DNA from: Chloroherpeton thalassium ATCC 35110
GTDB taxonomy: Bacteria; Bacteroidota; Chlorobiia; Chlorobiales; Chloroherpetonaceae
Direction: 5' to 3'
NCBI RefSeq assembly: GCF_000020525.1
Contig: NC_011026.1
Coordinates: forward strand, 2,896,001 to 2,960,000
DNA length: 64,000 bases
Under the pieces are notes generated by a model. The model worked only from the letters and a program-made list of their open reading frames with translations, was not told where the DNA came from and made no database searches. The translations under genes and the position numbers were made by a program. Positions 29,182 to 51,386 of the stretch are shown piece by piece (the stretch's first letter is position 1; each line of letters opens with the position of its first letter).

Positions 29182-29197
29182 CATCAAAAAGTTAAAC

Positions 29198-29274
29198 GGC
29201 GTGTTCGTCTAGCGGCCTAGGACACCGCCCTCTCAAGGCGGAGATCAGGGGTTCGAATCCCCTACACGCTACCA
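29198..29274 (+). tRNA. tRNA-Glu (CTC)
   Basis: Acceptor GGCGTGT/ACACGCT with G1-U72, anticodon stem CCGCC/GGCGG, loop CTCTCAA giving anticodon CTC, T-arm AGGGG-TTCGAAT-CCCCT. Discriminator A and encoded CCA at 29271-29274. Confidence 0.92.
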
Positions 29275-29288
29275 AGTTTTTTAGCATT

Positions 29289-29362
29289 GCACCTGTAGCT
29301 CAATTGGATAGAGCATCTGACTACGGATCAGAAGGTTGAGGGTTCGAATCCTTCCGGGTGCA
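29289..29362 (+). tRNA. tRNA-Arg (ACG)
   Basis: Acceptor GCACCTG/CGGGTGC, anticodon stem TCTGA/TCAGA, loop CTACGGA giving anticodon ACG (A34 presumably edited to inosine). T-loop TTCGAAT. No encoded CCA. Confidence 0.93.
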
Positions 29363-29379
29363 CAAAGTTCTTCAGTTAT

Positions 29380-29452
29380 TGAGGAGTGGCCAAATTGGTA
29401 AGGCTCCTGACTCTGGATCAGGCAATTGCAGGTTCGAGTCCTGCCTCCTCAG
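29380..29452 (+). tRNA. tRNA-Gln (CTG)
   Basis: Acceptor TGAGGAG/CTCCTCA, anticodon stem CCTGA/TCAGG, loop CTCTGGA giving anticodon CTG, T-arm GCAGG-TTCGAGT-CCTGC. The U1-A72 pair is typical of tRNA-Gln. No encoded CCA. The 220 bases after it hold no supported gene. Confidence 0.92.
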
Positions 29453-29672: not shown

Positions 29673-32600
29673 TTATAGCTTCCAATCGTACTTCCATTTT
29701 TCGACATCTTTGGCCGTCAAAACATCAATCTTGCCGCCTTGATATTCTTCCTTCACTTCGCCCATTTCTTCTTCCATGTCACCCTCAATTTCGAGCGCGG
29801 CGTCTTGGATGTCTTGCAATAGGTCGGCGTCCGCTTGCCAAAGTTCGCGGGCATTGGCTTCCAGCAATCGACGCGTGAGTTCTTCCAACGCATACGGGTT
29901 GGTTTCGCGTAGCCACTCTAAATTTTCCTTATCTTGAATGTAAGTTTCCGCGACGCTGTCAAACACCCACTTTTCCACTTGCCGGCTCGTTGCGCTCCAT
30001 TTGAACAAATTATTCACGCGGCTGGCCACCGACTGCGCGCCTTGAAATCCATGCTCTTTCTGATTTTCAATCCAGCGTTCGTTGAGCAATTTCGCCCGCA
30101 CGGAGCGCGAAATTTCCTCCTTGAAATCGCGGATGTCGGTGTTGTCCGGCGTGTTGCTGTCGCCCCAATAAATTTTCGGCGCTTTGCCGGAAAGCGCTCG
30201 CGTAGCCGCCGCCATGCCGCCTTGAAACGACGCATAGCAGCCGCAATCCAGCACATCGTATTCGGCGGAGGATTGCTTCATGTAGGACACATTCATGCGC
30301 TTAAGCTGCGAGGCCAACAGCTTGTGCGCCTTCATGCCGAAGTGCGAGGATGATTCGCCGTAAGCGTAGCCTCCCCAGTTGATGTAAGCTTCCGCCAAAT
30401 CGGCGTCCGTTTCCCACGCCGACGCATCGAGGGCAAGCCCGACGCCGATGCCGTACGTGCCGGGCGCCGACGAAAATACGCGAAACATCGCCAGTCGCTG
30501 CATTTCCGATTCCGACAGCTCGTTTGAAACATCGCTGCGAAGTTCGGCGATTTGCTCGTCGGTATGTTTCTTGATGAAATTGCGATCGGCGGGTTCGTCC
30601 AATTTGCTGAGCATCACGACGGCTTTGTCCAAAAGCTGCATGAAGTTCGGCACCATGTCGCGTAAAATTCCGCTGGTCTCAATCGTGACATCCACGCGAG
30701 GCCTCGTTACGGTTTCGCCCGCAATTTCAATTTGTAAATTTTCCAACGAAATCGCCCGCACTTCACGAACGCGACCACTGGATTCCCAAACCGGCTCAGC
30801 GCCCATCAAATACAAAATTTGCGAAAGCATTTCGCCGTCGGACTTAAACGCATCGGTGCTCCAAAGGCTCATGCCGATGCTTTCGGGAAACACGTCTTCG
30901 TCCTGATGGTATTTCTGCAAAAGCTTATCGGCTAAGGTTTTCCCGACCTCCCACGCGGATTTTGTCGGCAGCGCCTGAATGTCCGTTGTGAAGAAATTTC
31001 GCCCTGTTGGCAAGGCTTCCGTTTTCCCGCGTGTGAGCGAACCGGAAAGGCCAGCCTCGATATATTCGCCGTCCAACGCCCGCAAAAGCTGCTTGATTTC
31101 CCGCTCGGTCTCCCCGATTCTTCCTGCCAAATCGAGGCACCACGATTTCAACTTCGGATATTCCTCAGCGCACGAACTCGGCAGGCCGGACGCCTCTTCG
31201 CTGAGCAATTCGGAAATGACTTGAACCGCGTCGTCGTAATCTTCGCCCGTCGGCTCTGGGTTGAAGCGCGCGATTTCCTCCAACTTCGGCAATCCGTCAG
31301 CCGTGTGCATGAGCGTTGTCGCGAGCATTTGCGCGGTTTTTTCCGCGCTTGGCGTTTGCCCAAAAACGTGCATTCCTTCCGGCGCAAGCGAGCGTTTTAT
31401 CAGTTCAATCTGGCGCGAGGCGAACGCAGTTTGCGCCTCCACTTCCGCCATGCTCGCCTCTTTCGGAAGAAATTTCAGTTTTATCAAAATGGGCAACATG
31501 GCGGCTTTGAGCTTTTCTTTTCGGTTCAAATCCTTCGCCAAATCCGCCCGCTGAAATTCCTCAAGCAAGGATTCTAATTTTCGCAAATCGTCGGAAATCT
31601 CCGCTGGACGATAGGCTGGCGTGAGATGATCGATGATAACCGCGCGTCCGCGCCGTTTGGCAATCACGCCTTCGCCAGGCACATCCATGATGTAAGGATA
31701 GAAATTTGGCAAATCGCCGATGGAAATTTCCGAGAAACACCGCGCAGAAAGCGCCGCTCGCTTGCCGGGCAAAAACTCCAACGCGCCTTCCGTGCCAAAA
31801 TGAATGACCGCGTCGGAGGTTTTTTGAATGAACCGATAAGTGGCAAGCCAATGATGCGGCGGCGAAAGTTCCGGGTCGTGCAAAATCCGACAGACTTCGC
31901 CGTTGCACTTCGCGCCGTAGCAGCCCCGCTTAGGCTGCGCCATGATTTTAATTTTGCCGAACTGCAAGCCGGTAATCACCAAATGCGGTTTGCCCTCTAC
32001 CTCAAAAACCATTCCTTCGCCGGGAAAATCTTCCCAGTCGCGAAGCATTTTCCCTTTGACCGCATCGTCCAGCGTGTCAAAAAATTCGCGGTATTCGGTC
32101 TCGTCCATCAAGTGCAAATGCCCGCCTTTGCGCACGATTTCATCGACGGTTGTCCAGCGAAATTCTGCGATGGCTTTCCGCGAAAGAATCATGTCCAGAA
32201 TTTCCTTTCCGGGTTCGGGCGCGTCGCCCACATCGTAGCCCTCCGTCTTCATCGCTTTCAGGACTCGCGCAAGGCTTTCAAACGTGTCCATCCCGACGGC
32301 CATCCCGACGGTCGCTTCCACGCCCTTGCACGGATTGTTGTGCAAAACGAAGGTCACGCGCTTTTCGGCATTTTCCATCTTGCGAAGCGCAATCCAACGC
32401 TTGAGGCGATTGACGAGAAACCCGATTCGCTCGGGAATCGGGACGAACTCGCGGAACGCGGTTTGAATGTCGTAAGACTCTTTTATCGCGGCAAAAATGG
32501 TGGGTTCAATGACGCCGAATATTTCCGGCTGCACGAGCGAATGCACAAGGCTCATGGCGCTAAGGCCTTGCGGGTCTTCAAGCCATTCTTCGGGCGTGAG

Positions 32601-33404
32601 CAAATAATTTCGTATGAGGTGCAAAACCGGCGCATTGATTTCCTGAAGCACGGCACCATGTTCGGCGTTTGCGAGCAAGCGACCGGTGAGCATGTTCAAA
32701 ATCGCAAGCGGCTTTTCGGGTAAATTTTTGAAAATGCTGTACCAAGGATACATCGCCTCGAGCGACTCTTTGGCCGGATTGATGCTGTCGCAAAACACGC
32801 AAATCGACAACAAATTTTCCTCTTCCAACGCCGTGATAACCGCGTCCACATCGGCGATGTTTTGCTCGGCAATTTGTCCGTAGTAGCAAATGAGGCCAAT
32901 CGGCGTGCGTTCGTTTTTTTCGGAAAAATGCACATTGCGCCACGCAAAATAGTCGTCTGCGCTTTCAAACGTTTCGCCAGCTTCGGGGTGATAAATGCCG
33001 TTTGTGCGAACCGGCTTCGGCGCTTCTACCTCGCAGCTTGCGCCCGCTTTTGCCGCGAGATATTTCAAGCCGTTGACATAATTTTCTTTTGAAACGACGG
33101 CGAAATATGCCCGCACGGTTTCCGCCTCCGCTTCCGAAACGGTTGAAAAATCCCCGCCGAGCAACGGACTAAGCGCCACGCGATGCGTCACAAGGCGAAC
33201 CGCATCCGAAAGCTCCTGCAAGGCGGGCGTCTCTTGCGTCATGTCGGTGATGAGCAAATCGATGTCACCGTTTTGGCAACGCTCTCGAAGCTCCGCATAA
33301 TCGCGCTGCCCGAATCGCTGAAACGCGATTTCCTTTATCGTTTTTGCCGCTTGCTCCCATATCGCGGAGCTGTGCATATTGTTCAAAAAAGCAATGCGAA
33401 CCAT
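29673..33404 (-). CDS. Divergent CobN/BchH-superfamily chelatase-like protein with GTEG motif
   Basis: About 1243 residues from ATG 33404, which follows AGGAGA by 8 bases. An in-frame ATG at 33425 would add 7 residues. The whole length follows the CobN/BchH large-subunit fold. The region equivalent to the metal-site motif reads VIHFGTEGALEFLPGK, with Glu539 where CobN and BchH have His (compare GKHGSLEWLPGK in the neighbour at 38.3 kb). LPNFYPYIMDVPGEG and AKRRGRAVIIDHLTP follow as in CobN. It ends a locus with ChlI, ChlD, a TonB receptor and a second CobN. It could insert metal into a different ring, or remove metal as shown for the CobN-like heme dechelatase HmuS. The exact reaction is not known. 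Confidence 0.85.
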   Translation of the reverse strand: MVRIAFLNNMHSSAIWEQAAKTIKEIAFQRFGQRDYAELRERCQNGDIDLLITDMTQETPALQELSDAVRLVTHRVALSPLLGGDFSTVSEAEAETVRAYFAVVSKENYVNGLKYLAAKAGASCEVEAPKPVRTNGIYHPEAGETFESADDYFAWRNVHFSEKNERTPIGLICYYGQIAEQNIADVDAVITALEEENLLSICVFCDSINPAKESLEAMYPWYSIFKNLPEKPLAILNMLTGRLLANAEHGAVLQEINAPVLHLIRNYLLTPEEWLEDPQGLSAMSLVHSLVQPEIFGVIEPTIFAAIKESYDIQTAFREFVPIPERIGFLVNRLKRWIALRKMENAEKRVTFVLHNNPCKGVEATVGMAVGMDTFESLARVLKAMKTEGYDVGDAPEPGKEILDMILSRKAIAEFRWTTVDEIVRKGGHLHLMDETEYREFFDTLDDAVKGKMLRDWEDFPGEGMVFEVEGKPHLVITGLQFGKIKIMAQPKRGCYGAKCNGEVCRILHDPELSPPHHWLATYRFIQKTSDAVIHFGTEGALEFLPGKRAALSARCFSEISIGDLPNFYPYIMDVPGEGVIAKRRGRAVIIDHLTPAYRPAEISDDLRKLESLLEEFQRADLAKDLNRKEKLKAAMLPILIKLKFLPKEASMAEVEAQTAFASRQIELIKRSLAPEGMHVFGQTPSAEKTAQMLATTLMHTADGLPKLEEIARFNPEPTGEDYDDAVQVISELLSEEASGLPSSCAEEYPKLKSWCLDLAGRIGETEREIKQLLRALDGEYIEAGLSGSLTRGKTEALPTGRNFFTTDIQALPTKSAWEVGKTLADKLLQKYHQDEDVFPESIGMSLWSTDAFKSDGEMLSQILYLMGAEPVWESSGRVREVRAISLENLQIEIAGETVTRPRVDVTIETSGILRDMVPNFMQLLDKAVVMLSKLDEPADRNFIKKHTDEQIAELRSDVSNELSESEMQRLAMFRVFSSAPGTYGIGVGLALDASAWETDADLAEAYINWGGYAYGESSSHFGMKAHKLLASQLKRMNVSYMKQSSAEYDVLDCGCYASFQGGMAAATRALSGKAPKIYWGDSNTPDNTDIRDFKEEISRSVRAKLLNERWIENQKEHGFQGAQSVASRVNNLFKWSATSRQVEKWVFDSVAETYIQDKENLEWLRETNPYALEELTRRLLEANARELWQADADLLQDIQDAALEIEGDMEEEMGEVKEEYQGGKIDVLTAKDVEKWKYDWKL

Positions 33405-33433
33405 TTTTTTTCTCCTGAATTTCAATGTTTTCC

Positions 33434-33532: not shown

Positions 33533-34570
33533 CTAAACCTCCGCCGTTTTCTTGAGCATCCGGCTAACGTCCATCACAATGTCTTGCAGCGGTTGACGGC
33601 GGACGCGGTGCGGCAAGGCAAGCTCAGCAGCTTGATCGATGTCCGCTTGCTCGACTTCCGTGCGGCCATGATACGCAGCCAATGTTTTCGCCGTTTTCAA
33701 AATGATGATGTCGCCGCGATGACCGTCCACACCGACCTCCAAGCAGTAATTGGCAATTTCCAAAAGGCGCGCTCTGGAAATATTCACCTTCGGATAAAGC
33801 GCCATCGCTTTTTTGATTTTTTGAACCAACGCTTCCGAATCTGCCTTCCACGAGCCGATAAAGCTTTCCGGCGTTTTTTCAAATTCATAGCGGCGCTCCA
33901 TGATTTCCACGCGCAAGTTCGGGTCGGTGATGCCCTCAATCTGGACACAAAGCCCGAACCGGTCGAGAAGCTGCGGGCGAAGTTCGCCTTCCTCCGGGTT
34001 CATTGTCCCGACGAGCGTAAATCGCGCTGGATGGGAAAATGAAATGCCTTCGCGCTCGATGGTATTTACGCCCATCGCCGCCGAGTCGAGCAAGACGTCC
34101 ACCACATGGTCGTCCAAAAGATTGACCTCATCCACATACAAAATGCCGCGATGCGCCGACGCCAAAAGGCCGGGCTCGATGCGCTTCTCGCCTTTTTTCA
34201 GCGCGTATTCCAAATCGAGCGTCCCGACGACGCGATCTTCCGTTGCGCCCACAGGTAACTCCACCACGCGCACATGCTTTTTCTCAGTCTCAAGCGACCC
34301 GAGCGAAACTGCGTCGCCGACCACCGAAAGGCATTCGCGGATGATGTCGGAATTTTCATCGGGCGAAAGGTTGAACGGCAAGCCCTTAACCACATCAATT
34401 TCCGGCAAAATGTCAGCGAGCGCACGCACGGCGGTCGACTTCGCCGTGCCTTTTTCGCCGCGAATCAAGACGCCGGAAAGCGTCGGGTTGATGATGTTTA
34501 AAATCAAGGCCAGTTTCATCTTCTCCTGCCCGACAATTGCGACAAACGGATAAATATGCTGTTTCTTCAT
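33533..34570 (-). CDS. chlI: ChlI/BchI-type AAA+ chelatase ATPase subunit
   Basis: 345 residues, the usual length of ChlI. Walker [10 protein letters not shown] (38-46), Walker [14 protein letters not shown] (Asp147-Glu148), sensor-1 region [21 protein letters not shown]. It forms the ATP-hydrolysing ring that drives metal insertion by the large CobN/BchH subunit together with the D subunit. Its start overlaps the chlD stop (ATGA, 34567-34570), so the two are translationally coupled. Context with CobN proteins and a cobalamin riboswitch argues for a corrin or other non-chlorophyll substrate, but a link to BchH elsewhere cannot be excluded. Confidence 0.92.
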
Positions 34571-36594
34571 TTCATGCTGTCCTTTACAATGCTTAAAAGT
34601 TGATCGGATTTTAAATCGTCTATTTTGAAATAGTCTGCGCTGAGCATGGCCGAAATTTTGGACGCCAGCCCGAACGAGACCAGCCCGGCCTCTTCCGTAT
34701 CCACCACGATGAAACGGATGCGCGCTTCCTCCGCCATTTTTCGCGCCACCGCATAAACTTCGTCCATCGGCTTTTGATTGCCGAGCGCAAAATTGGCCTT
34801 GCCGTCCGAGATGATAATCATGATGGGGCGGGCTGTCGGCTCTTTGAGCAGATAGTTTTTACAAAGCTCGTAGCCTTTGACAAGTCCGGCGGAAAACGGC
34901 GTGCGACCGCCGACGGGCATGTCTTTCAAAAGTTTTCCTGCAACTTCCACCGACGAGGTGATGGGCAAATTTACCCAAGCTTCTTTTTTGCGAAACGAGA
35001 CCATCGCCACCTTGTCGCGCTTTTGATACGCATCGAGCAAGAGCGACATGACCGCGCCTTTCGAGGCCGCCATGCGCCCGCGAGCGCCCATCGATCCGCT
35101 GGCGTCGACAACGAACAGCAGCAAATTGCCGACGCGCTTTTCGCGGATTTTCTCGTGAATATCGCTTTCGTGCAGGGCGACGGCCATGCCGTTCGGATTG
35201 TCGCGGTGTCGCTGGTGCGGCGCGGCGGCGCGAAGCGTGGCATCGAGCGCGATGTCGTCATTGCTGCGCTTCGAGGTGCTACGAATGTAGCGGCCTTGCT
35301 TCTGCGAAACCTTTGACCGCGACCGCCGACCCGAACCGCGCCGCTTGTTGCGATCCTTCGGCGTGGAAAATTTCTTCACTTTGAAGGTTGCGCCGATGTC
35401 GAAAATTTGCTCCAAAACTTGTTCATGCGCTTCCTCCGGCGAGCGCTCGTCGTCCTCGTTTTTCTCGTCCGGCGAGTCCTGCTCTTCTTGGTTGTTGCCC
35501 TGCTGTTCTTGCTGCGGCTGCTCGCGTTCTTCGCCCTCACCTTCGGGCTGATTTTGCGCTTCGGGTTGCGGCTGTTCTTGTTGACGGTTTTCCTCCGGTT
35601 CGGGCTGCTCTTGTTCTTGTTGCTCCGGTTCGTCCTGCTCTTCCGGCTGAGGCGGTTCGGGCGGCGGGGGCGGAATGGGGTCGCGCCGGCGATGCGACAA
35701 CGCAAACGGCGCAACAATTTTGATGTCCTCCACACCGACTTCAAGCTGCGAACGATAAGCCGCGTGCGCCCGAGCGGCGTGCTCAATCACCAAATCCGCG
35801 CGATGTCCGGCCACGTTATTTTCGCGGCAAAGCTCCGAGATGAACGAGCGCAAATGCGGCGGCATTTTCACTTCGGTGAAAAGCTTTTTGGCTTTGGCTA
35901 TTTTTTGCGCCAGTCGATCGTTTTCGGCTTGATAGCTTTCGATAAATACGATCGGGTCCGAGTCGAAAGCTTCGCGGCGCAAAATGAGATCCACGCGATG
36001 TTCGGGGTCGCGCTCGGACTGAACTTCTACGCAAAGTCCGAACCGATCGAGAAGCTGCGGGCGAAGCTCGCCTTCTTCCGGGTTCATTGTCCCGACCAAA
36101 ATAAATTCCGACGGATGCTTGAACGACATGCCTTCGCGCTCAATGTGATTTTCACCCGAAGCCGCCGCATCCAAAACGACATCCACGATGTGGTCGTCCA
36201 ACAAATTCACCTCGTCGACATACAAAATGCCGTGATGCGCTTTGGCGAGCAATCCGGGCTGAAACACCCGGTGCCCTTCTCTGATGGTCAAATTAAAATC
36301 GATGCCGCCGACCACGCAATCCTCCGTTGCGTTGAGCGGCAAGGTGACCACCGACGGGCGATGCTTTTCAACAATTTGGCTTTTTGTGCCGTCGTGCAAT
36401 TCGGCCATCGGCTGCGATTCGACTTCGGGCAAAAGCGCGCTCAACGCCCGCACCGCAGTCGACTTCGCCGTGCCTTTTTCCCCGCGAATGACCACGCCGC
36501 CGACCTTTGGATTCACGGCATTTAAAATCAGGCAAAGCTTTAAGTCCGCCTGCCCAATTATGGCTGAAAACGGAAACAAGTGTTTGTGCATCAT
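34567..36594 (-). CDS. chlD: ChlD/BchD-type chelatase subunit (AAA+ plus VWA)
   Basis: 675 residues. The N-terminal AAA+ domain keeps Walker A (GEKGTAKST, 38-46) and Walker B ([10 protein letters not shown]). A Pro/Gln/Glu-rich linker (about 305-390) follows. The C-terminal VWA domain carries the MIDAS motif VDASGSMG (Asp497) and [11 protein letters not shown]. ChlD couples the ChlI motor ring to the large chelatase subunit. It starts 6 bases after the upstream TonB receptor gene and overlaps chlI by 4 bases, so outer-membrane receptor and chelatase subunits are made from one message. Confidence 0.92.
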
Positions 36595-36600
36595 TTCTTT

Positions 36601-38337
36601 CTAAAACTGATAATTCATTCCGAAAACCCATTCCAAGGGCGGCGCGTCGTAGCCATCACCATAGCGATACGATTTGTCAAAAAGGTTATCGACATCAATG
36701 AAAAGCCGCACCGCGCCAAGCCGATAGTCAGCCCTGAAATTCGCAATCCAATAGGCATCTAAGGATTTTGAATTGTCGGAACGCGTGTAGGTTTTGGAAT
36801 CGTACTTTAGGCTGACTGTCATGGAAAGTCGCTCAATCGGATAGAGCATCACATCGGCTGTGATGCGATGAAACGGCTTGGCCGGAAGCCAATAGCCGGT
36901 TTCGTCATTTTGAGCGTGCAAATACATGTAGGCCGGACTCAGCGAGACCTGCGCCAAAGGTTGCCAAAAAACAGACGTCTCGACGCCCTGATAAGTCACC
37001 TTTCCAAAATTCTCATACATGCCCCAATCGTCGCTTTGCCACACATACGTGATGCGATCGGTGATTTTGCTATAAAATCCCGAAATCGAATAGCTGAACG
37101 TTTTTGCCGGCTTCACCTGAAAGCTCACACTCAAATTCGTGGCTTTTTCCAGCTTGAGATTCGGATTGGGCTTGGTCACAGAAGTTTCGTTGTAGCGCTG
37201 CTTGAAGGTCGGCATGTTGTTGGTTTGATTGACCGAGCCGTCCAAACTGAACATTTTCGAGAATTGATAAATCGCTTTCAATTCAGGATTAAAAGCGTTT
37301 GGAAAGGCCGTGTAGAAATTTGCGCGCGCGCCAAGCGAGAGCTGAAGCGGAAAGTTTTCAAACCGAATTGACTTTGAAAAAAAAGCCCAAGTTCGCGTCT
37401 CCGCTTGCTTGTCGAATTGCGTGCCCGAAGCTTCTTCCCATTCCACGCCAGCGCCGAAGGTGAAAAGGCCAAGCTTCGGCAAATTTGCGGGAAGCATGAA
37501 TTTTTGGCCAATTTGTGTTGAGCGAAGCTGATTGTAAAGGTCGCGGTCGGAATCGCGATTTTCGGTTTCCGACCAACTGATGTAAGTCCGGCTTTTGAGT
37601 TCGGAAATATCCGCGCTGAAAAGTCCCGACGCCGACTGATAATCGTTCCGAGAGTTCGGCGTGCGGCTTTCCGGCAATCCTCGCGAGCCATTGGCTTGGT
37701 CGATAAAATCAGCCGCCAAACCGAACGAAAGCGACTCCTTCGGATGAAACGCCGTCTTAGCACCCAATTGCCATTGCGTCTTGTCGGAGTTTTCCACAAA
37801 CCCGTCCTCCGCCTCGTAACTGGCCGTCAGCGCTGCGCCCATTTCTTCGTACTGACCTTGAAGATTTAACTCGACATTTTTATGCTCGAAACGTCCATAA
37901 AAACTTTCCAAGTTGCCGTTGAATCGGCTGATTTTTTTCGAGGTAATCAGAATGACGCCGCCGCTGGTGTTGTCGCCATAAATCGCCCCGCCCTTGCTTT
38001 TGTGAATCTCGATGGATTCAACCGCGCCGAGCGAAATCATGTCCCATTTCACGCCGCCGGCGCTGGATGTCGGGTCGTTGATGGGACGGTCGTCCATGAA
38101 AACCATCACGTTCGAGGAGCCACGAATCGAGATGTAGGAATCCGTGGCTTTTAGTCCCGGAACGCGATTTAGCACATCTTGGATTTTCATCACATTCATC
38201 GCGGCGATTTCTTTCGCAGTAATCAGAATGCGGTCGCTTGCCTCTTGCGCCCAAAGCTCGGGCATCAACCCAAGGCAAACGCAAATGCCGAAGCACGCCC
38301 GCAGCACTTGTCGCTGATAATTGAAAAACTTCCTCAT
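36601..38337 (-). CDS. TonB-dependent outer-membrane receptor (BtuB-like)
   Basis: 578 residues from ATG 38337, which begins with the signal MRKFFNYQRQVLRACFGICV and overlaps the cobN stop by 4 bases (ATGA). The plug domain has ILITAKEIAAMNVMKIQDVLNRVPGL-type sequence, SYISIRGSSNVMVFMDDRP and GAIYGDNTSGGVILITSKK. A 22-strand barrel ending in aromatic YQF follows. The length is close to E. coli BtuB (about 614). Being sandwiched between cobN and chlD it probably imports the ring or metal complex that the chelatase uses. Corrinoid is favoured by the riboswitch upstream, but heme or a metallophore is possible. Confidence 0.88.
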   Translation of the reverse strand: MRKFFNYQRQVLRACFGICVCLGLMPELWAQEASDRILITAKEIAAMNVMKIQDVLNRVPGLKATDSYISIRGSSNVMVFMDDRPINDPTSSAGGVKWDMISLGAVESIEIHKSKGGAIYGDNTSGGVILITSKKISRFNGNLESFYGRFEHKNVELNLQGQYEEMGAALTASYEAEDGFVENSDKTQWQLGAKTAFHPKESLSFGLAADFIDQANGSRGLPESRTPNSRNDYQSASGLFSADISELKSRTYISWSETENRDSDRDLYNQLRSTQIGQKFMLPANLPKLGLFTFGAGVEWEEASGTQFDKQAETRTWAFFSKSIRFENFPLQLSLGARANFYTAFPNAFNPELKAIYQFSKMFSLDGSVNQTNNMPTFKQRYNETSVTKPNPNLKLEKATNLSVSFQVKPAKTFSYSISGFYSKITDRITYVWQSDDWGMYENFGKVTYQGVETSVFWQPLAQVSLSPAYMYLHAQNDETGYWLPAKPFHRITADVMLYPIERLSMTVSLKYDSKTYTRSDNSKSLDAYWIANFRADYRLGAVRLFIDVDNLFDKSYRYGDGYDAPPLEWVFGMNYQF

Positions 38338-41300
38338 TCGGTTAAATCCTCGATCTTTCCTTCCGTTTCCAAATATTCTTCGCGCAAACTTTGCGTCATT
38401 TCCTCGCTCGCGTTCCACATCCCGCGACTGATGGCTTCCAAAAGTTTGTCCAAAATATTTTGATGCGCGTAAGGATTCACCTCCTGCATCCATTTTTTCA
38501 TTTCGGGATCGAGGGCGTATTTTTTTGCGACGCGCTCATACATCCAATCGTCGACGACTTCGGCGGTGGCATCCCAACCCAGAATGACATCCATCATTTT
38601 GGAAATGTCGCCAGCGCCTTTGTAACCGTGACGCTTCAGCCCGTCGAGCCATTTTGGGTTGAGCAAGCGAGCACGGAAAATGTGCTTCGCTTCTTCTTCG
38701 GTGGTGCGAACTTGCACGCGCTTCGGGTCGGAGCTATCGCCCATAAACGAGAACGGCTTTTCGCCGCGAACAACCTTCGAGGCAACAATCAGGCCACCAT
38801 AATAATTATAGTAATCTGTACAAGAGAACATGTCGTACTCGCGCGAATCCTCATTTTTCACCGTCACATCCATTCGAGAAAGAACGGTTTTAAACGTCTT
38901 CGGCTTTTGCTTGCCGTAGCTGCCTTTGCCGTAAGCGTGTGCGGAATAGCGAATGTAGTTCGCCGCCAAATCGTCCTGCGTTTTCCAATTTTTGGATTCG
39001 ATGAGCTCCTCAACGCCCGCGCCGTAAGTGCCCGGCGGACAGCCAAACACACGGAACGTGGCTTCGCGCATGGCGTCCTCTTCGCTCATGCCGTCCTGTT
39101 TGTAGGTTTCGTAGTCCGCCCAAACGTTTCGGCGCAACATGTTTATTTCGGGGGGTTCGTTTAGCGCCGAAACCATTTGAACGGCGTCGTCAATACGCTC
39201 AACCAAAAGCGGAAAGGCGTCGCGGAAAAAGCCCGAGATTCTCGGGACCACATCCAAACGCGGCCATTTTAGCTCATCAGCCGGAATGATTTCCAAGCCT
39301 TTCACATAGCCGCTGCCTTCCTGCCAAACCGGCCTGATGCCCATCAAATACAGAATTTCCGCAAGGTCGTCACCTTTGGAGCGCATGGTTGCGCCGCCAA
39401 ATAAAATGATGCCGATGCTTTCGGGATATTTGCCCGTTTCGTCTAAATATCGTTGAACGAGCGCGTCGCCGAGCCGCTGCCCGACTTCCCAAGCGCCCGG
39501 ACTGGGAATTTTGTTCGGATCGACAGAATAGAAATTTCGTCCGGTTGGTAAAATGTCGGCTTGCCCACGCGTCGGTGCGCCGGAGGGCCCGGGCTGGACA
39601 AATTGCCCATCAAAGGCGCGAAGGCTCGCCGTCATTTCGTCCGTCGTTTTTTGAATGTTTGGCACAATGCTTTCACAAATGAAATCCAGCGCGCGCTCCA
39701 CCGACGGCGTGATGATGCTGCCAAATTTTTCGCTCGCGGCGGAAATCGCTTCAGGATGAAAATCACGGTTTTCCAAAAACGACATGATTTCCAGCGCGCT
39801 GTCGTGTGCCTCACGAATCAGTTCGCCGCCGGTTTTGCGATGTCCGTTTCCGCCCGAAATAGCATTTTCGGAAGATGAATTGCCGGAAGTTGAACTGGCG
39901 AAAATGGCCTTGCCTTTATTTTCCAAAAGCACATCGTAGTTGTAGCCTTGCGCTTCGAGCAGCGCCTCGCGCAGCGACGGAATGCTGCCATTGCTGATGC
40001 GCGTCATTTGCACGAGCAGCTGGCTGAGCTGCTCGCCTTCGGGCGCCTGGCCGAAAGTGTGCAAGCCATCGGAAATCATGGTGTCGGACATGTCGTCCAA
40101 GTACGCATGAAGCTTTTCAAGAAACGCATCGAAATCGGCGAGAGCGGCGTCTTTCGTGATTTCAAGGTCTTTGTCCAAGTCGGCCTCTTCGGCGGCCTCC
40201 CAAATCATCGGGCGCAGAATTTCCAGTTTGCCCGGGTCGCCGGATTTGGCGTCGGCGTAATCGCGCAGCAAGTTTTCCACTTTGGCCATGTCTTCGTACA
40301 AATCCGCGTTGGTGAAAACCGGCGTCAAGTGGTCGATGATGCAACAGTACGACCGGCGTTTGGCCTGCGTGCCTTCGCTCGGGTCGTTGATGATGTAGGG
40401 ATAAATGTTCGGCAAATCCATGATGGATAAATCCGGGAAGCACTTTTCGCTAAGCCCCAGCGCTTTGCCGGGCAGCCATTCGAGCGAGCCGTGCTTGCCG
40501 ACGTGCATCACGGCGTCGGCTTGGAAGACATCACGAATCCATCGGTAATAAGCCAAATAGTGATGCGGCGGCGGAATGTCGGGGTCGTGCAAAAGCTGAT
40601 CCATGCGTTCCAATTTTCCGCGCGACGGCTGAATCGTGATAAAAATATTACCGTTGATGAGTCCGGGAAAAAGCAATTTCCCATCATGGACGAACAAATC
40701 GCCGGGCATGTCGCCCCAGCTTTTCACCATTTTTTCTTGAACCGCTTCGGGCAGCGCGTTGTGCCAAGGCATGTATTGCGAAGCCGTGGCAGCAGCGGCA
40801 GCTCGCTCAGCCATTTTATCCGGCGGCAGCCAGCGGCGGTCGCAGGTCATTTTTTCCAAAAGCTCGTGGGCGAGGTCGTCGCCTTTTTCATAGGTTTTCT
40901 CCACCTTGTAGCCTTCCGCTTGCAAATTTTCCAACAGCTTATTCACGCTTTGAAAACTGTCCAGCCCGACCGCGCAGCCGATTCTATCGTTGCGCGGCGG
41001 GTTGTGGTGAAAGACAATCGCAAGGCGCTTTTCCGAATTGGGTTTATGGCGAAGCATCGCCCATTTTTTAGCCAGCGAAACCAATTTTTCGATGCGTCCC
41101 GAAATGGGCATGTATTTGGTGAGCATCGCGCCGGTGACGGGATCGACCTCGTTTTCCTCGCGCGTGCCAACGGGAATGGTAATCAGCGCGCCGTCAAATT
41201 CTGGTTGCGCCGCCGCAAACGAAACTTCCATTGTGCTCATGCCTTGCACGCTGTTTTTCCAAACTTCATAAGGCTGATTGGTAATCATGGCTTGCAAAAC

Positions 41301-42161
41301 CGGCACATCGAGGCTCGGATACACATCCTTATAAGCCGGATAATTGAGCGTGAGCGAGAAGATTTGCGGATTGATTAAAACATCGATTCGCGATTTGCCG
41401 TCGGGCGTTTTGAAAAACATATCGCTGACCGCATCCGCACCTTTGTTTCCGCGCGCCATGTCTTTGTAGCGAATGTGAAATATCGGCAATGCGTTTGCGC
41501 CTTGTTTTTCAATTTCCCGAATCAACACGTCGAAATGCACCAAGTTGTTATTCACCCAATAGTTTTGGTTAAACCAAAGCCCAATGGTTGGTTTTGCGGG
41601 GTCAATGCGCGAGTTCAGATAACCGTCGAAATCCTCAAAATCGGAAAACTCCGGGTGGTAAATGCCCTCATGCGGCAAATGTTTCGGCGCTGCGCACGGG
41701 TGCGTTCCTTGTGCGAGCATGTTATAAAGATAGCCGACCAAATGCTGGAAATTCCAACTGCCACCATGACTGAGATATTGATTGATTTGGTCGCCGTGTT
41801 CGGTGCCAAAAGTGTTTGCATATTTTTGCGCCAATGCAATGCCTTCCTCATCGCCGCCGCTCGTATGAATATGCACAACCGGCATACACTGGCCGTCGCT
41901 TAATCGCGCATCCATGAGCTCGGCCAGCGCGTCAAATGCCGGACACGAGCGCTTGCCACCATGCAACGCAATGATCATCACATCACTTTGCATGGCTTTT
42001 TCGGCAAATGCTTGCTTGCGCGCGTCATCAAAAAGTTGGGTTTGCGTTCGGGCAAACACGCTAACATTTCCGCCGTTTTGCTTAAAGAGCTGCACGCCCG
42101 CGCTTAGCGACGGAATTTCCATGCCCGTGGCGCTGTAATAGCAAAGATTAAAGGTGTTCAT
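38334..42161 (-). CDS. cobN: CobN-type cobaltochelatase large subunit
   Basis: 1275 residues, the expected length. It keeps the CobN hallmark AVMHVGKHGSLEWLPGK (His557), DLPNIYPYIINDPSEG, AKRRSYCCIIDHLTP and the C-terminal RARLLNPKWLDGLKRHGYKGA and YDMFSCTDYYNYYGG segments. CobN holds the corrin ring while the ATPase subunits drive Co2+ insertion. Many organisms that lack CobS and CobT pair CobN with ChlI and ChlD, as found here. It begins within the last codons of the radical SAM gene (14-base overlap) and overlaps the receptor gene by 4 bases. Mg chelatase BchH is less likely given the GKHG motif and the context. Confidence 0.9.
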   Translation of the reverse strand: MNTFNLCYYSATGMEIPSLSAGVQLFKQNGGNVSVFARTQTQLFDDARKQAFAEKAMQSDVMIIALHGGKRSCPAFDALAELMDARLSDGQCMPVVHIHTSGGDEEGIALAQKYANTFGTEHGDQINQYLSHGGSWNFQHLVGYLYNMLAQGTHPCAAPKHLPHEGIYHPEFSDFEDFDGYLNSRIDPAKPTIGLWFNQNYWVNNNLVHFDVLIREIEKQGANALPIFHIRYKDMARGNKGADAVSDMFFKTPDGKSRIDVLINPQIFSLTLNYPAYKDVYPSLDVPVLQAMITNQPYEVWKNSVQGMSTMEVSFAAAQPEFDGALITIPVGTREENEVDPVTGAMLTKYMPISGRIEKLVSLAKKWAMLRHKPNSEKRLAIVFHHNPPRNDRIGCAVGLDSFQSVNKLLENLQAEGYKVEKTYEKGDDLAHELLEKMTCDRRWLPPDKMAERAAAAATASQYMPWHNALPEAVQEKMVKSWGDMPGDLFVHDGKLLFPGLINGNIFITIQPSRGKLERMDQLLHDPDIPPPHHYLAYYRWIRDVFQADAVMHVGKHGSLEWLPGKALGLSEKCFPDLSIMDLPNIYPYIINDPSEGTQAKRRSYCCIIDHLTPVFTNADLYEDMAKVENLLRDYADAKSGDPGKLEILRPMIWEAAEEADLDKDLEITKDAALADFDAFLEKLHAYLDDMSDTMISDGLHTFGQAPEGEQLSQLLVQMTRISNGSIPSLREALLEAQGYNYDVLLENKGKAIFASSTSGNSSSENAISGGNGHRKTGGELIREAHDSALEIMSFLENRDFHPEAISAASEKFGSIITPSVERALDFICESIVPNIQKTTDEMTASLRAFDGQFVQPGPSGAPTRGQADILPTGRNFYSVDPNKIPSPGAWEVGQRLGDALVQRYLDETGKYPESIGIILFGGATMRSKGDDLAEILYLMGIRPVWQEGSGYVKGLEIIPADELKWPRLDVVPRISGFFRDAFPLLVERIDDAVQMVSALNEPPEINMLRRNVWADYETYKQDGMSEEDAMREATFRVFGCPPGTYGAGVEELIESKNWKTQDDLAANYIRYSAHAYGKGSYGKQKPKTFKTVLSRMDVTVKNEDSREYDMFSCTDYYNYYGGLIVASKVVRGEKPFSFMGDSSDPKRVQVRTTEEEAKHIFRARLLNPKWLDGLKRHGYKGAGDISKMMDVILGWDATAEVVDDWMYERVAKKYALDPEMKKWMQEVNPYAHQNILDKLLEAISRGMWNASEEMTQSLREEYLETEGKIEDLTE

Positions 42162-43209
42162 AATGTAGAGCGTTTTTTAAATTCACGGATTTTGCCAGCG
42201 TGCGAAGCATGACGCACAGCAGCGTTCGTGCTGACGGTTCGTTGTAATACAAGCGCGAGGGACAGTCGCCCGGGCAGCGGCCTTCAAGTGGACAGCCCAT
42301 GCAATCGCTCAAGGCAATTCTTTCTTTTCCCAGTTTATCTAACCGGCTTGAATCCGGCGCATCGAGCGTGCCGAGCGAAAAATCGGGATCGCCGAATGTT
42401 TGCGTGCATGGATAGAGTTCTCCGCTTGGCGAAACGGCCAGGCTTTCGCCGGAGCACGCCTCGCAAAATGGCTGAGACGAACTTCGATTCATGGCCTTCG
42501 CCAGCGTGTCCCACTCACGAAAATGAATCGGAACACTTCGCACGGAATTCACAAACTGCAATCGCTTGAGCAAACCTTGCAGCGCGTGCTCGAGCTCCTC
42601 TGGGCTTGGCAAGTCAATTGTATCATTTTTCAACGCGCCGCCTTTTCGCACCAGCATGTCCAACCCAATGCCACGCGCGTTTGGAAAAGCGCCCAAAACG
42701 AACGGCAATTCTTTCAGTTTATTCACATTGCGATTCGAAACCACCGCCGTGACATTGAACGGAATGCCCTCTTCCCGCAATAATTTCATGCCTTGAAAAG
42801 TTTGCGCGCTTCGTCCGCGAATGGATTCTTGCACATCTGGCACGCCGTCCAAGCTGATCCCTATTTTTACTCGATGCGTTCTCAGCTGTCCCAAAAAGGC
42901 TCGGCTCAGTAGCGTGCCATTGGTCTGCAACGAGATGGTCGATTCCGGGGAAACGGCTCGCGTTTTTTTGATAATCTCAAGCACTAAATCTTGCTCAAGC
43001 GTTGGCTCGCCGCCGGTGAGCTGCACATGAAACGCTTTGCCAGAAGAAGCTGCCAAACGCAAGGCTTTTTCAGCAATTTCCAAACTCATCGGACGCCTTG
43101 ACTTATACTTCGCATCACCTCGCTCGTAGCAGTACGCGCAAGTCAAATTGCAATCGCCCGTTACCATGAGCATTACATTTCTCGGCTTAAAAATTGAATC
43201 GATTTGCAT
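42148..43209 (-). CDS. Radical SAM protein with SPASM-type C-terminus
   Basis: About 353 residues from ATG 43209, preceded by GAGGAG at 9 bases. The frame is open to 43341, which would add 44 residues and leave only 7 bases to the upstream gene. The radical SAM cluster motif is CNLTCAYC, followed by the GGEP motif (QLTGGEPTLEQD) and ISLDG. The C-terminal region has CEACSGESLAVSPSGELYPC and CMGCPLEGRCPGDCPS, enough cysteines for auxiliary Fe-S clusters as in SPASM enzymes. Those usually modify peptides or mature enzymes, but no precursor peptide is visible here. The overlap with cobN suggests action on the same tetrapyrrole system or its protein partner. Confidence 0.88.
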   Translation of the reverse strand: MQIDSIFKPRNVMLMVTGDCNLTCAYCYERGDAKYKSRRPMSLEIAEKALRLAASSGKAFHVQLTGGEPTLEQDLVLEIIKKTRAVSPESTISLQTNGTLLSRAFLGQLRTHRVKIGISLDGVPDVQESIRGRSAQTFQGMKLLREEGIPFNVTAVVSNRNVNKLKELPFVLGAFPNARGIGLDMLVRKGGALKNDTIDLPSPEELEHALQGLLKRLQFVNSVRSVPIHFREWDTLAKAMNRSSSQPFCEACSGESLAVSPSGELYPCTQTFGDPDFSLGTLDAPDSSRLDKLGKERIALSDCMGCPLEGRCPGDCPSRLYYNEPSARTLLCVMLRTLAKSVNLKNALHYEHL

Positions 43210-43348
43210 CTGTTTCTTCTCCTCTACATTGTATTTGCAAAAACCTTTTTCACATAAGCGCTTGCGATATGACGCTTTTTCTGAACGCGTATTCTTAATG
43301 GAATGCCATTGTGTGTTTCTGCTATGGTTAGGCGCTATCATCTTTTTA

Positions 43349-44569
43349 TCAATCCAGCTTTCGGTAATAGACCAGCTTGTGCTCCGGCAAGAGTTCGGGA
43401 TGAAAAATCTTGATTAAATCAGCCAGCACAACTTGCGGCTCCATCATGCCCGTTTCCCAAAATCGATTGCGCCCGTTGTTGAACGCCGACGCATTATTAT
43501 TATAGACTTGCCCGGTTTGAACCGATTTGAAAATCCCGTATCGCTTATCCTGTCCCAGCAATTCTGAAATTTTCCTAACGTCCCACTGCGGATTCACCCA
43601 ATAGTCTGCCTTAATTCCCTTCTGAATGGCGACTTCCAAACTGACGACATTTTCCTCGTACTCGTTTTTTGGCTCCAAAATGTAATTGGCGCCCGCATCC
43701 AGCAGAAATTGCACGAACCATGCGCTCGAGCCGTGCGTTGTCCACGCGCCTTTTCGATTGTGCCCAACAATGACGCCCGGCTTTTGAGCAACAGCATCGG
43801 CTACGCGTTGATAATTGAGGTATTGGGTTTTGACGCTGTCGAAGTAGGCTTGCGCAATGGCTTCCTTTTGAAAAAATGCGCCGATAAACTTTATCCATTC
43901 AAGCACGCCAAGCGGCTGGGCTTCCAAATGCGCACAAATCAGGCCGGGCGTAATGCCAAACTGGTGAATCTTTTCTTGCATGTCGAAATCGCTACCCGAC
44001 CCATAAATAAAGGCGACATCGGGTCTGGTTTCGACCAGCGTTTCCATATTCATATTTTGGCTGTCTCCCAGCGCTGCCATTTCTCCCGCATCCAACATCT
44101 CGTGAATGCGCTCATTTCCCACGCGCATTTTTCCCGAGACGCCAACAACGGCGTCAAAATGTCCCAAAAGCGCCACCAACGAGACATGAAAACCGCTTGC
44201 ACAAGTGACCGTTCGAACCGGAATTGAAACCAATTCATCGTAGTCGTAACCTTTGGGAACAGGCTGCCCTTTCGGCACCAAAAGATAGGTGAACCACAAC
44301 CCGCGCTTTCGTCCGACCGGCTTTTTGATTTCCAGCAATCGGCAGCCGTTTCTCAAACGGGTGATGCTAAACCGCTCGGCGAACTCAATTTTCACCTCGC
44401 CTTTTTGCGGAAGCTCAAGTGGCTGCGCCAAAAGATTTGCAGGGAAAAACGCCAGCACGCCACCTATCAGAAAAAAGCATCGCGGCGTTTTAAGCCTATT
44501 TTTTAGCGTTATGAAAAACGAAATTAGATTAGCCAACATCGTGCATCTTAAAATTGACAAGCCCAACAT
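43349..44569 (-). CDS. Periplasmic binding protein of the BtuF/FecB type (second copy)
   Basis: 406 residues. A signal (FFLIGGVLAFFPANLLAQ) precedes a class III binding-protein fold: SIPVRTVTCASGFHVSLVALLGHFDAVVGVSG, ETLVETRPDVAFIYG, LEAQPLGVLEWIKFIGAFF. Starts at 44569 or 44539 are both possible and neither has a clear ribosome site. It is homologous to the binding protein at 49.8-51.0 kb, but no permease or ATPase is beside it, so it probably feeds the same BtuCD-type pair with a different ligand form. It ends 7 bases before the longest radical SAM frame. Confidence 0.85.
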   Translation of the reverse strand: MLGLSILRCTMLANLISFFITLKNRLKTPRCFFLIGGVLAFFPANLLAQPLELPQKGEVKIEFAERFSITRLRNGCRLLEIKKPVGRKRGLWFTYLLVPKGQPVPKGYDYDELVSIPVRTVTCASGFHVSLVALLGHFDAVVGVSGKMRVGNERIHEMLDAGEMAALGDSQNMNMETLVETRPDVAFIYGSGSDFDMQEKIHQFGITPGLICAHLEAQPLGVLEWIKFIGAFFQKEAIAQAYFDSVKTQYLNYQRVADAVAQKPGVIVGHNRKGAWTTHGSSAWFVQFLLDAGANYILEPKNEYEENVVSLEVAIQKGIKADYWVNPQWDVRKISELLGQDKRYGIFKSVQTGQVYNNNASAFNNGRNRFWETGMMEPQVVLADLIKIFHPELLPEHKLVYYRKLD

Positions 44570-44783: not shown

Positions 44784-47141
44784 TTAAAAATTCACTGCGT
44801 AGCGAACCCCAACTGAACGACCAGGCATGTTGTAGCCGTCTTTTTCGGTGTAATTTTCATCCAAGAGATTTTTGGAAAACACCGAAATGCTGCTGCTCTG
44901 ATTGATTGCAAAAGTGACATTCGCGTCAAAAATCAGGCTTGCCGGATGTTCAAGAACGGCGTCGGTTAATGTCGGACGCGCTTCCGGGTAGTAGTAGAAC
45001 CAGTTTTGTTCATATCGGCTGCCAATGTAGCGAGCGCTCAGGCGGGCACTTAAAAAATGATAGTCGTCGTACTCAATGCCGAACGAACCCCGATTTTTTC
45101 GCACATAATTCAAATCGGAGGTTTCGCCATCTTCGGTTTTCTCGGCTACGAGCTGATGCGTGAAGTTGGCAAAAAACCGCAAGGAATAGTCAAAATCGTG
45201 TAGCGCGCCGAAATCATACGAGAGCTCAAATTCCAAACCTTGCAATTCGGCTTCGTCGACATTTTCGAAGGTTTTATAATTGGTGGTGTCGGTGCCGTCG
45301 ATTTCAGTACCAGCCACTTCTTCGATGAAGTTATCCCACACTGTGTTGAAATAGGTGATGTCCGCACGAAAGCCCATATCAGACTCGTAAGTCAAACCGA
45401 TGTCAAATGTGACGCTGGATTGCGGGTCTAAATCAGCATTTCCGCGCGTTTCCACACCGTAAGAATTCACGTATTTTCCAGCTTTTTGGTAAGGATTCGG
45501 CGTCACAAAGGCGCGTCCGGCGCTGCTATGAATTTTCAATTCAGGAATGAGCCGATATTGCGCACTGACGCTTGGATTGAAATTTGAATAGGTTTCAGCC
45601 TTCGAATCCAGCTCGCTATTATCGAAGTATGGCGTTTCTTTCAGTTTGTAGCTGGTAATATCCAAACGCCCGCCGATGTTGGTAATCAAGCGGCTGTTTA
45701 AGAACGAAAGCGCGACTTCGGAAAAAACCCCGAAGGTTGAAAGCCGCTGGTTCGGGCGATATGGCGCGGTTTCGGTAGAATCATCCGAGTAGCTATGAGC
45801 GGTGACATCGGCCTGGTTAAAATCCACTCCCGCCGTGATTCGCTGGTCGCCAAGCGATAGAATATCTTGCATCTGAAATCCAAACCATTGCGTTTTGGAC
45901 TTGGAAGAGATGTAATCAATTTCGTCGTCTTGATGGTCGTAGTATTCGGTTTCTTCAATCGCCCAATAGGGTTTCACCTTAAAACTGTGCTGATTCAAAT
46001 TTCCGGTTAAGGAAAGGTCGATGGTTTGGCGATCCACATTTTTTTGCCCATGTCCATAGACAGCCCAAACCGAACCTGGCGTACGGACGCTATTGGCTTG
46101 ATAAATTTCACCGCGCGTTTCGAATCTGAGATCTTGCGCAAAATCATAACCCAAACGCAAACTGGCCGAATTTGTCGAGTAGCTGGTGTTGCGCATGGTT
46201 TTAATTTGCTGCTCCAGCAATTCGTTGTCAGGATCAGAAATGATCGTATTGCTGCCGATCTCGTAGTCGTCGTTTTGGTTAAACGTGCGCCCGCCAAGAT
46301 CAAAATCGAGTTTATCGGTTAGCGAGCCGCCGGCGTTGAACTTTCCGTCCAATGTTTTGAAGCTGCCATAGCTAAATTCGGCGTGGCCTTTCACATCTCC
46401 TTTTGAGCGTTTGGTGATGAAGTTAATGGTGCCGCCCATCGCTTGAGATCCATATAGCGCCGAGCTTGGACCTTTGATGACCTCAACGCGCTCGATGGTG
46501 CTCATATCGATGGTGGCCAAATTTGTCACACCCGCCGGACGGCCATCGATGAGATAGGTAACATATTGGTCTAAACCCGAATACTTTGGCGTAAATCCGC
46601 GCACCGAAACGCCGGAAAGCACGCCTGGATATTCAATAATATCGACACCGGCTGTTTTCTTCAGAAGTTCGGTTGCATCTTTTGGCGCGAGCGCTTCGAT
46701 GTCATCTTCGGTCACGATTTCTACTTTTCGCGGAATATCTTTGAGCCGCGAACCGGTTCTCGAGGCTTGCACAACAATTTCACCCGTCAGCCGCGAATCC
46801 TCGGCAAGCAACACATTGATGACCGAACTCTGGCCGATTTCTACAATCTTCTTGCGATAACCCAAATAGCTAAACAGCAAGTTTTTCGCGCCATCATCAA
46901 CCGAAATGGAATACTCGCCGTTGTCATTCGTCATTACGCCAAGCGACGAGCCTTCCACTTTAACCGTAACGCCAATCAACTTTTCATCTGTGCTTTCGCT
47001 TCTGACAACGCCCGTTAAAGTGCGCGTCTCCGCTTTTGCGCTGAGCGGCAAAAGCCCAAGCATGAGAATCAAGAATAATAATTTTCGATAGCGCCCTTGC
47101 TGCTCCTGCAAAGGCACTTTCAAATGAACCACACGCTTCAC
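44784..47141 (-). CDS. TonB-dependent receptor with N-terminal CarboxypepD_reg domain
   Basis: 785 residues, GTG start 8 bases after AAGGAGA. Signal (LLFLILMLGLLPLSAKA), then a CarboxypepD_reg-like domain (about 40-120, TLTGVVRSESTDEKLIGVTVKV), plug (ELLKKTAGVDIIEYPGVLSGVSVRGF, VEVIKGPSSALYGSQAMGGTINF) and a barrel ending in VGVRYAVNF. This architecture is common in Bacteroidota for corrinoids, siderophores and heme. It lies in the riboswitch-led locus, downstream of the ABC importer genes and separated from them by 379 bases. Cobalamin or a related corrinoid is the leading ligand. Confidence 0.88.
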   Translation of the reverse strand: MKRVVHLKVPLQEQQGRYRKLLFLILMLGLLPLSAKAETRTLTGVVRSESTDEKLIGVTVKVEGSSLGVMTNDNGEYSISVDDGAKNLLFSYLGYRKKIVEIGQSSVINVLLAEDSRLTGEIVVQASRTGSRLKDIPRKVEIVTEDDIEALAPKDATELLKKTAGVDIIEYPGVLSGVSVRGFTPKYSGLDQYVTYLIDGRPAGVTNLATIDMSTIERVEVIKGPSSALYGSQAMGGTINFITKRSKGDVKGHAEFSYGSFKTLDGKFNAGGSLTDKLDFDLGGRTFNQNDDYEIGSNTIISDPDNELLEQQIKTMRNTSYSTNSASLRLGYDFAQDLRFETRGEIYQANSVRTPGSVWAVYGHGQKNVDRQTIDLSLTGNLNQHSFKVKPYWAIEETEYYDHQDDEIDYISSKSKTQWFGFQMQDILSLGDQRITAGVDFNQADVTAHSYSDDSTETAPYRPNQRLSTFGVFSEVALSFLNSRLITNIGGRLDITSYKLKETPYFDNSELDSKAETYSNFNPSVSAQYRLIPELKIHSSAGRAFVTPNPYQKAGKYVNSYGVETRGNADLDPQSSVTFDIGLTYESDMGFRADITYFNTVWDNFIEEVAGTEIDGTDTTNYKTFENVDEAELQGLEFELSYDFGALHDFDYSLRFFANFTHQLVAEKTEDGETSDLNYVRKNRGSFGIEYDDYHFLSARLSARYIGSRYEQNWFYYYPEARPTLTDAVLEHPASLIFDANVTFAINQSSSISVFSKNLLDENYTEKDGYNMPGRSVGVRYAVNF

Positions 47142-51042: not shown

Positions 51043-51081
51043 GTTCTTTGCTTTGCACCCGAAGCTAATGAAAAATATATC

Positions 51082-51272
51082 TCACGGCAGGTCTTCTGAC
51101 TTTCCCGAATCCGACAGCCTTCCCATCCTTAGAATAGTGGCTTTTTTTGTCAGATTACTCCATTGAATCTTATTTCAAAATTCAATGCAGGATTACAGCA
51201 GCGGGGACTGTTCCGGTCTTTCACCGGATTCCCTTTTAAGTTGGCTAAGAACAACACCGTGTAACAGGCCGT
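51082..51272 (-). ncRNA. Cobalamin riboswitch
   Basis: Read on the minus strand: a 5' GCCTGTTACACGGTG, then GGGAATCCGGTGAAAGACCGG, ACAGTCCCCGCTGCTGTAATCC (the B12-box region), a variable arm, GGATGGGAAGGCTG, and the closing GTCAGAAGACCTGCCGTGAG. Order and spacing match the adenosylcobalamin-type aptamer. It ends about 40 bases before the binding-protein start. High cobalamin should shut off this gene and probably the importer genes behind it. How far control extends past the gap at 47.1-47.5 kb is not known. Confidence 0.93.
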
Positions 51273-51386
51273 TATTTTACAGAAAAGAACTGAATATACC
51301 AAATTATTTAGTGGAGAATTTTTGTAAGGTTATCAAAAAATGCCTTACGATTTCTTTTCGGAAAAACGGAGCTTTTCAATGGAGGA

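Follow-up and report, generated by a model that had tools for sequence, protein, structure and literature searches.

The residues with which class-I chelatase large subunits act on a tetrapyrrole ring have been described for ChlH and for the heme dechelatase HmuS. In ChlH, H621, E660 and H1174 are essential catalytic residues directed at the ring nitrogens (2026 review, PMC13297055). In HmuS, His538 and His1209 hold a cation in the cleft, and the peptide preceding His538 is cis; the H538A substitution abolishes heme conversion and leaves heme binding unchanged, and His538 was described by the authors as strictly conserved across the superfamily (PMC12583661). The reaction that defines the cobaltochelatase CobN is the insertion of cobalt into hydrogenobyrinic acid a,c-diamide. 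For CobN of the type considered here, the AAA+ proteins ChlD and ChlI were proposed as partners by Rodionov, as cited in a passage of PMC9227772. A cobN-bchH-bchI-bchD cluster is present in Ca. Chlorobium antarcticum and C. tepidum, and cobalt insertion into an acquired corrinoid was proposed for it in the sections of PMC8620254 that describe the cluster. This cluster is very probably the same as the Chlorobiaceae CobN1/CobN2 cluster discussed below; in those sections BchH is the annotation of the second large subunit, and the lost His, the Cys branch, and the nitrilase and radical SAM partners are not mentioned.

Here we describe CobN2, which is encoded together with a classical CobN1 in the window, the whole 64,000-nucleotide stretch of the Chloroherpeton thalassium ATCC 35110 genome that was analyzed. 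The new finding is that the catalytic His is missing from one of the two large subunits, which belongs to a different branch, with Glu, Ser or His occurring in the same context. This makes CobN2 a natural experiment on the role of the His in metal insertion and removal, and separates two proteins that are annotated CobN/BchH within such clusters.

The cobN2 gene and its operon

In the window, cobN2 is the last gene of a row that is headed by a cobalamin riboswitch. The features are given in their order on the minus strand, starting from the riboswitch.

51069..51276, minus strand: cobalamin riboswitch heading the same-strand gene row (RF00174, 98.4 bits, E 2.4e-23)
49792..51042, minus strand: periplasmic binding protein, BtuF-like (PF01497)
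48624..49775, minus strand: ABC permease, BtuC-like (from sequence)
47521..48627, minus strand: ABC transporter ATPase, BtuD-like (from sequence; between the permease and receptor genes)
44784..47141, minus strand: TonB-dependent receptor (best scores against hemin-receptor subfamilies, below cut-off)
43349..44569, minus strand: periplasmic binding protein (PF01497)
42148..43341, minus strand: SPASM-like radical SAM protein, adjoining cobN1 (PF04055; homologues in the clusters of relatives)
38334..42161, minus strand: CobN1, classical cobaltochelatase type with a normal HVGKHG motif (TIGR02257, 977 bits, above the cut-off of 822)
36601..38493, minus strand: TonB-dependent receptor (TIGR01779 vitamin B12 receptor, 112 bits, below cut-off)
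34567..36594, minus strand: ChlD-like AAA+/VWA subunit (TIGR02442 'putative cobaltochelatase', 784.3 bits, above the cut-off of 779.45)
33533..34570, minus strand: ChlI-like AAA+ subunit (N-terminal part of TIGR02442, 488 bits; TIGR02030, 437 bits)
29673..33425, minus strand: CobN2, class-I chelatase large-subunit homologue without the catalytic His (ORF; PF02514, 1130 bits)

The row from the riboswitch to cobN2 contains two gaps (380 and 215 bases), and a single transcript is therefore putative. A scan for promoters and terminators found no promoters above chance. The listed ATG of the receptor gene at 36601..38493 overlaps cobN1, and its start is likely near 38337. The ChlI and ChlD genes adjoin cobN2, AAA+ partners (CobS/CobT or ChlI/ChlD) being one of the features expected of a CobN. 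This linkage suggests that the two subunits may be shared by CobN1 and CobN2, and possibly they serve CobN1 only. Near the cobN2 end of the operon there is a gene for a Fur-family regulator (28501-28890, minus strand), and four tRNA genes (29108-29452, plus strand) lie between it and cobN2. Three BchH-type genes are present elsewhere in the C. thalassium genome.

The cobN2 ORF encodes 1250 amino acids from a TTG at 33425, with an alternative ATG seven codons on, at 33404. Glu546, as counted from the TTG, is the Glu539 of the preliminary description, which counted from the ATG. That description had placed a GAA codon at 31788-31790, and the minus strand indeed reads GAA from 31790 to 31788, within CATTTTGGCACGGAAGGCGCG, which encodes H F G T E G A (motif context HFGTEGALEFLPGK). 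The motif with which it was compared is also as reported, CobN1 (38334-42161, minus strand) reading HVGKHGSLEWLPGK. The further statement that the gene is not decaying agrees with intact copies in every complete relative and with a low dN/dS, dN being ~0.036 and dS ~0.28 between two close Chlorobiaceae, similar to 0.028 and 0.29 for CobN1. CobN2 is under strong purifying selection. A pseudogene or a sequencing error is ruled out, as the ORFs are intact, dN/dS is low and independent genomes carry this Glu as well.

The CobN-Mg_chel domain of CobN2 is full length (positions 2-1088 of the 1090 in the PF02514 model, 1130 bits) and the protein has the six-domain fold of the superfamily, of which it is a member; Glu546 takes the place of the catalytic His in the superfamily motif HxGxHG. 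CobN2 scores below the equivalog cut-offs of every NCBIfam CobN and BchH model, with 736.5 bits against a curated cut-off of 822 for TIGR02257 (CobN) and 689 bits against 829 for TIGR02025 (BchH).

Active-site residues, fold and phylogeny

Residue equivalences were derived from the published ChlH numbering and from alignments of PDB chains.

32328..32330, minus strand: Cys366 (NNPCKG), the fourth co-occurring Cys (alignment)
31890..31922, minus strand: C-x4-C-x4-C loop with Cys502, Cys507 and Cys512 (GCYGAKCNGEVC), a low-pLDDT loop in the AF2 model
31788..31790, minus strand: Glu546, codon GAA, at the position of ChlH His621 and HmuS His538 (alignment; PMC12583661, PMC13297055)
31776..31778, minus strand: Glu550, equivalent to ChlH Glu625, kept in 10/10 aligned CobN2
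31671..31673, minus strand: Glu585, equivalent to ChlH Glu660, Glu in 9/10 aligned CobN2 and Asp in one
30237..30239, minus strand: Cys1063, at the position of ChlH His1174 and HmuS His1209 (alignment)

An alignment of 51 proteins was examined, comprising 10 CobN2, 18 classical CobN (six of them Chlorobiales CobN1), 13 Cys-branch proteins, two short forms, five BchH/S/T, one HmuS-like protein and two unplaced sequences. The residue-546 column contains His in 42 of the 51, Glu in five and Ser in four, these nine all being CobN2; every aligned protein outside CobN2 keeps the His, including the Bacteroidota HmuS-like protein (L110). Among the 41 non-CobN2 proteins 41 columns are invariant, and 38 of these are kept in every CobN2. 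The altered columns are 546, Pro1116 and Glu585 (Asp in a single member), and residue 546 is the sole active-site column lost in most CobN2. The position of ChlH H1174 and HmuS H1209 is mostly Cys among CobN2, with Gly and Ser also occurring, and is Asp in classical CobN. A functional His at another position, which the preliminary description had named as grounds against its proposal, was looked for in the alignment, and only His524-His525 (PPHHW) came up. The first His of PPHHW occurs in nearly all family members and the second in classical CobN as well; this pair is not a specific replacement.

The AF2 model of CobN2 has a mean pLDDT of 87.8 and a pTM of 0.89. In a Foldseek search the best match was M. 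tuberculosis CobN (7c6o, TM 0.81, E 4e-83), and further matches included HmuS (9d26, TM 0.80) and ChlH (TM 0.75); with values this close, the fold alone does not discriminate between the three. The 38 of 41 invariant residues, together with the TM of 0.81 to 7c6o, indicate that the fold and the pocket are kept. CobN2 resembles CobN (TIGR02257) in its fold, in ~30% identity and in its ChlD/ChlI partners, but in CobN the two positions that face the ring are His and Asp, and there is no Cys loop. It resembles ChlH/BchH in the fold and in the equivalents of Glu625 and Glu660, but has Glu and Cys in place of His621 and His1174. Cys366, Cys502, Cys507 and Cys512 are all present in 25 of the 51 aligned proteins, and none of them is present in the other 26. 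It is a reasonable guess from this pattern that the four form one shared metal or Fe-S site, which is undescribed in the literature surveyed. In the model, the C-x4-C-x4-C segment probably serves as an active-site gating loop. The four all-or-none cysteines mark a large branch annotated 'CobN' that includes CobN2 (L045, L054-L076).

Three CobN2 sequences from a later search were added to the 10 in the alignment, giving a clade of 13 members (SH-aLRT 100), several of which come from incomplete MAGs. Residue 546 is Glu in seven of them, spread over two phyla, Ser in four (all Chlorobiaceae) and His in two (G566 and G941), which group together in the tree. At least three changes are required at this position, which fits Glu as the ancestral state of the clade, though by a hand count only one step better than the alternative. 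The clade motifs PCKG, CYGxxCxGEVC and PPHHW are shared by its members with small variations. Among 395 genomes of the Bacteroidota phylum, a DNA pattern specific for the Glu form matched G000 and G001 only, and a wider scan of genome contigs yielded two loci.

The preliminary description had suggested a tree as a check on whether Glu defines a clade. The clade is real and Glu is confined to it, but Glu does not define it, since Ser and His occur as well. For the same reason, the function common to CobN2 cannot rest on a Glu metal ligand, and Glu as a clade signature with a new metal specificity is excluded. Of the earlier proposal that replacement of the His suggests a different metal, ring or direction of reaction, the substitution of a conserved metal-site His holds in the alignment and an altered activity is plausible, but a new metal bound through Glu is not upheld.

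The sister group of CobN2 is a Cys-rich branch annotated CobN (SH-aLRT 99), and classical CobN, BchH and HmuS form separate branches, in a tree in which HmuS is represented by one protein and the archaeal and methanogen CobN-like proteins by one haloarchaeal CobN. Proteins of the Cys branch, from Desulfobacterota-type genomes, contain the motifs HNNPCASVEATVG, QPKRGCAGxRCDGxVCKILHDP and HVGTHGNLEFLPGK; they have all four Cys in common with CobN2, but keep the His and have Cys-Cys in domain V where CobN2 has DCGC. The preliminary description treated the gene as a second CobN homologue paralogous to CobN1. A recent duplication of CobN1 as its origin is ruled out by the ~33% identity of the two proteins and their deep separation in the tree. 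Short CobN-like proteins (~1145 aa; L052, L053, L123, L124, L127) form a group of their own, with SVGTHGYIEFLPGK and Ser in place of the first motif His, and the gene for a short CobN-like protein in L086 adjoins ABC transporter genes.

Gene neighbourhoods and distribution of CobN2

A cobalamin riboswitch was found near 12 of the 13 CobN2 loci, and none near the G001 locus, a lax threshold included. The riboswitch lies upstream on the same strand in the window and in G410, G566, G650 and G736, and heads the CobN1 or the radical SAM gene in G941 and G894. In Chlorobiaceae and G395 the riboswitch comes immediately downstream of cobN2, at the head of the next TonB receptor gene, and direct control of cobN2 by B12 is only putative there. 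As a rough control, a cobalamin riboswitch was present in one of eight stretches around Cys-branch homologues.

CobN1, ChlD, ChlI and CobN2 are common to the clusters of the relatives. Of the 13 neighbourhoods of CobN2, several of which are truncated at contig ends, 10 contain a radical SAM homologue and seven a nitrilase-superfamily homologue. We know of no assigned role in B12 salvage for the radical SAM protein or the nitrilase. Five of the 13 also contain an AP_endonuc_2 TIM barrel of the CbiR superfamily, which is CbiR-like and of putative identity; CbiR is a cobamide-remodelling enzyme with homologues common in Chlorobi (PMC7733943). In G001, the genes after CobN2 are those for CbiM, CbiQ, CbiO, CobA, CbiX, CbiL and CbiH/C, and a CbiS/CbiZ-like gene lies close to the CobN2 cluster of G034. 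The neighbourhoods point to an uncharacterised B12-linked gene set of anaerobes, consisting of CobN1, CobN2, ChlD/ChlI, radical SAM, nitrilase and CbiR-like proteins.

CobN2 is present in six of 61 Chlorobiales, and in a set of 41 Chlorobiales genomes the four that have a classical CobN1 (PF02514 >1300 bits) are precisely the four that have CobN2. CbiD was found in all 10 CobN2 genomes tested (as a fragment in G395) and in five of eight Chlorobiales without CobN2. CbiD belongs to the anaerobic, early-cobalt route. Cells with this pathway should have no need of a late cobaltochelatase for de novo synthesis, and the CobN1-ChlD-ChlI set therefore most likely serves acquired corrinoids; the presence of a late CobN-type step beside CbiD suggests salvage rather than de novo synthesis.

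Possible roles of CobN2

Our leading interpretation, held tentatively and with somewhat less than even confidence, is that CobN2 may be an accessory corrinoid-handling partner of CobN1 in B12 salvage and probably does not insert metal itself. The sequence, the clade, the gene linkage, the riboswitches and the predicted fold are established by the analysis; from them we infer a corrinoid as its ligand, a division of labour with CobN1 and an absence of chelation. In this reading CobN2 belongs to a B12-repressed operon for corrinoid uptake and salvage. Its ring pocket is kept, as are Glu550 and Glu585, the acidic residues of metal and proton traffic; the His positioned over the ring nitrogens in enzymes that insert or remove metal is missing, and a Cys takes the place of the opposite His. 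It could receive, hold or prepare the incoming corrinoid for loading or transfer to CobN1, which together with ChlD and ChlI would carry out ATP-driven cobalt insertion; alternatively, it might present the corrinoid to the radical SAM and nitrilase partners. The occurrence of Glu, Ser or His at residue 546 in the same gene context speaks against this side chain as the catalytic group of the shared function, and fits a ring-binding protein that does not use the side chain for chelation. Against an accessory role, the retention of Glu in seven members over two phyla hints at selection for Glu and at possible catalysis, and the CobN2 of G566 and G941, having the His, might chelate.

The main rival explanation, which we consider possible but rather unlikely, is that CobN2 is an active remover or exchanger of corrinoid metal with changed ligands (Glu/Ser below the ring, Cys1063 above it and four extra Cys near the gate), stripping the metal before CobN1 inserts cobalt. 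Its pairing with CobN1 and ChlD/ChlI in one operon is consistent with this, as are the change of both catalytic His positions with Glu550 and Glu585 kept, the four co-occurring Cys with their suggestion of a metal or Fe-S site, and the ability of the class-I fold to work in the removing direction, as in HmuS (PMC12583661). However, the Ser of all four Chlorobiaceae is a poor ligand or base, Cys1063 is not constant among CobN2, and the four Cys are common to His-bearing homologues. We know of no class-I chelatase-type enzyme that removes metal from cobalamin. If true, metal exchange by CobN2 would show how cells salvage metal-free or wrongly metallated corrinoids. An improbable and more speculative scheme is that CobN1, CobN2, ChlD/ChlI, the radical SAM protein and the nitrilase-type amidase constitute an undescribed anaerobic corrinoid-remodelling route that swaps the central metal of scavenged corrinoids, in which CobN2 (with Glu/Ser and Cys and the four-Cys site) would demetallate and CobN1 would re-insert cobalt. 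That CobN2 is instead an ordinary cobaltochelatase that tolerates the substitution and inserts cobalt like CobN1 is fairly improbable. Most invariant residues are kept, the ChlD/ChlI genes adjoin cobN2 and two clade members have the His, but H538A abolishes the activity of HmuS, all aligned members outside the clade keep the His, and a CobN1 with the full residue set is encoded in the same operon.

A non-corrinoid tetrapyrrole, such as a new modified cofactor, on which CobN2 would act with the radical SAM and nitrilase proteins, would account for the frequency of these two partners (10 and seven of 13 neighbourhoods) but is very unlikely, as the cobalamin riboswitches and the CbiM, CbiX and CbiL neighbours indicate corrinoids. 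Least of all do we expect a heme dechelatase. The preliminary description had offered HmuS as a candidate model, and in favor of this CobN2 belongs to the same superfamily and shares its fold, and the TonB receptor at 44784-47141 scores best, below cut-off, against hemin-receptor subfamilies. HmuS, however, uses and requires His538 at the position of Glu546 and pairs it with His1209, where CobN2 has Cys1063; its conversion of heme to protoporphyrin depends on NADH and not on ATP. HmuS is also anchored by TM helices at both termini, and its domain IV contains a large insertion. A search of CobN2 for TM anchors gave no hydrophobic 19-mer exceeding 1.6, and the inserts of 43-78 residues seen in L110 are absent. 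In place of hmu genes, the gene context of CobN2 offers a cobalamin riboswitch and cobalt/corrin genes. A forced grouping of CobN2 with HmuS was rejected (p-AU 0.0005, HmuS being a single long branch and the test thus subject to long-branch effects). The residues, the missing TM helices and domain IV insertion, and the tree together speak against HmuS as the identity of CobN2, and the model was rejected.

Genes for a nitrilase, an AP_endonuc_2 protein and a SPASM-like radical SAM protein were seen beside CobN1/CobN2 and riboswitches in L033, L035, L078-L079, L081, L090-L093, L032, L130 and L131. In L130, two divergent cobalamin riboswitches lie back to back at 12262-12766, one directed toward CobN1 and the other toward the radical SAM gene.
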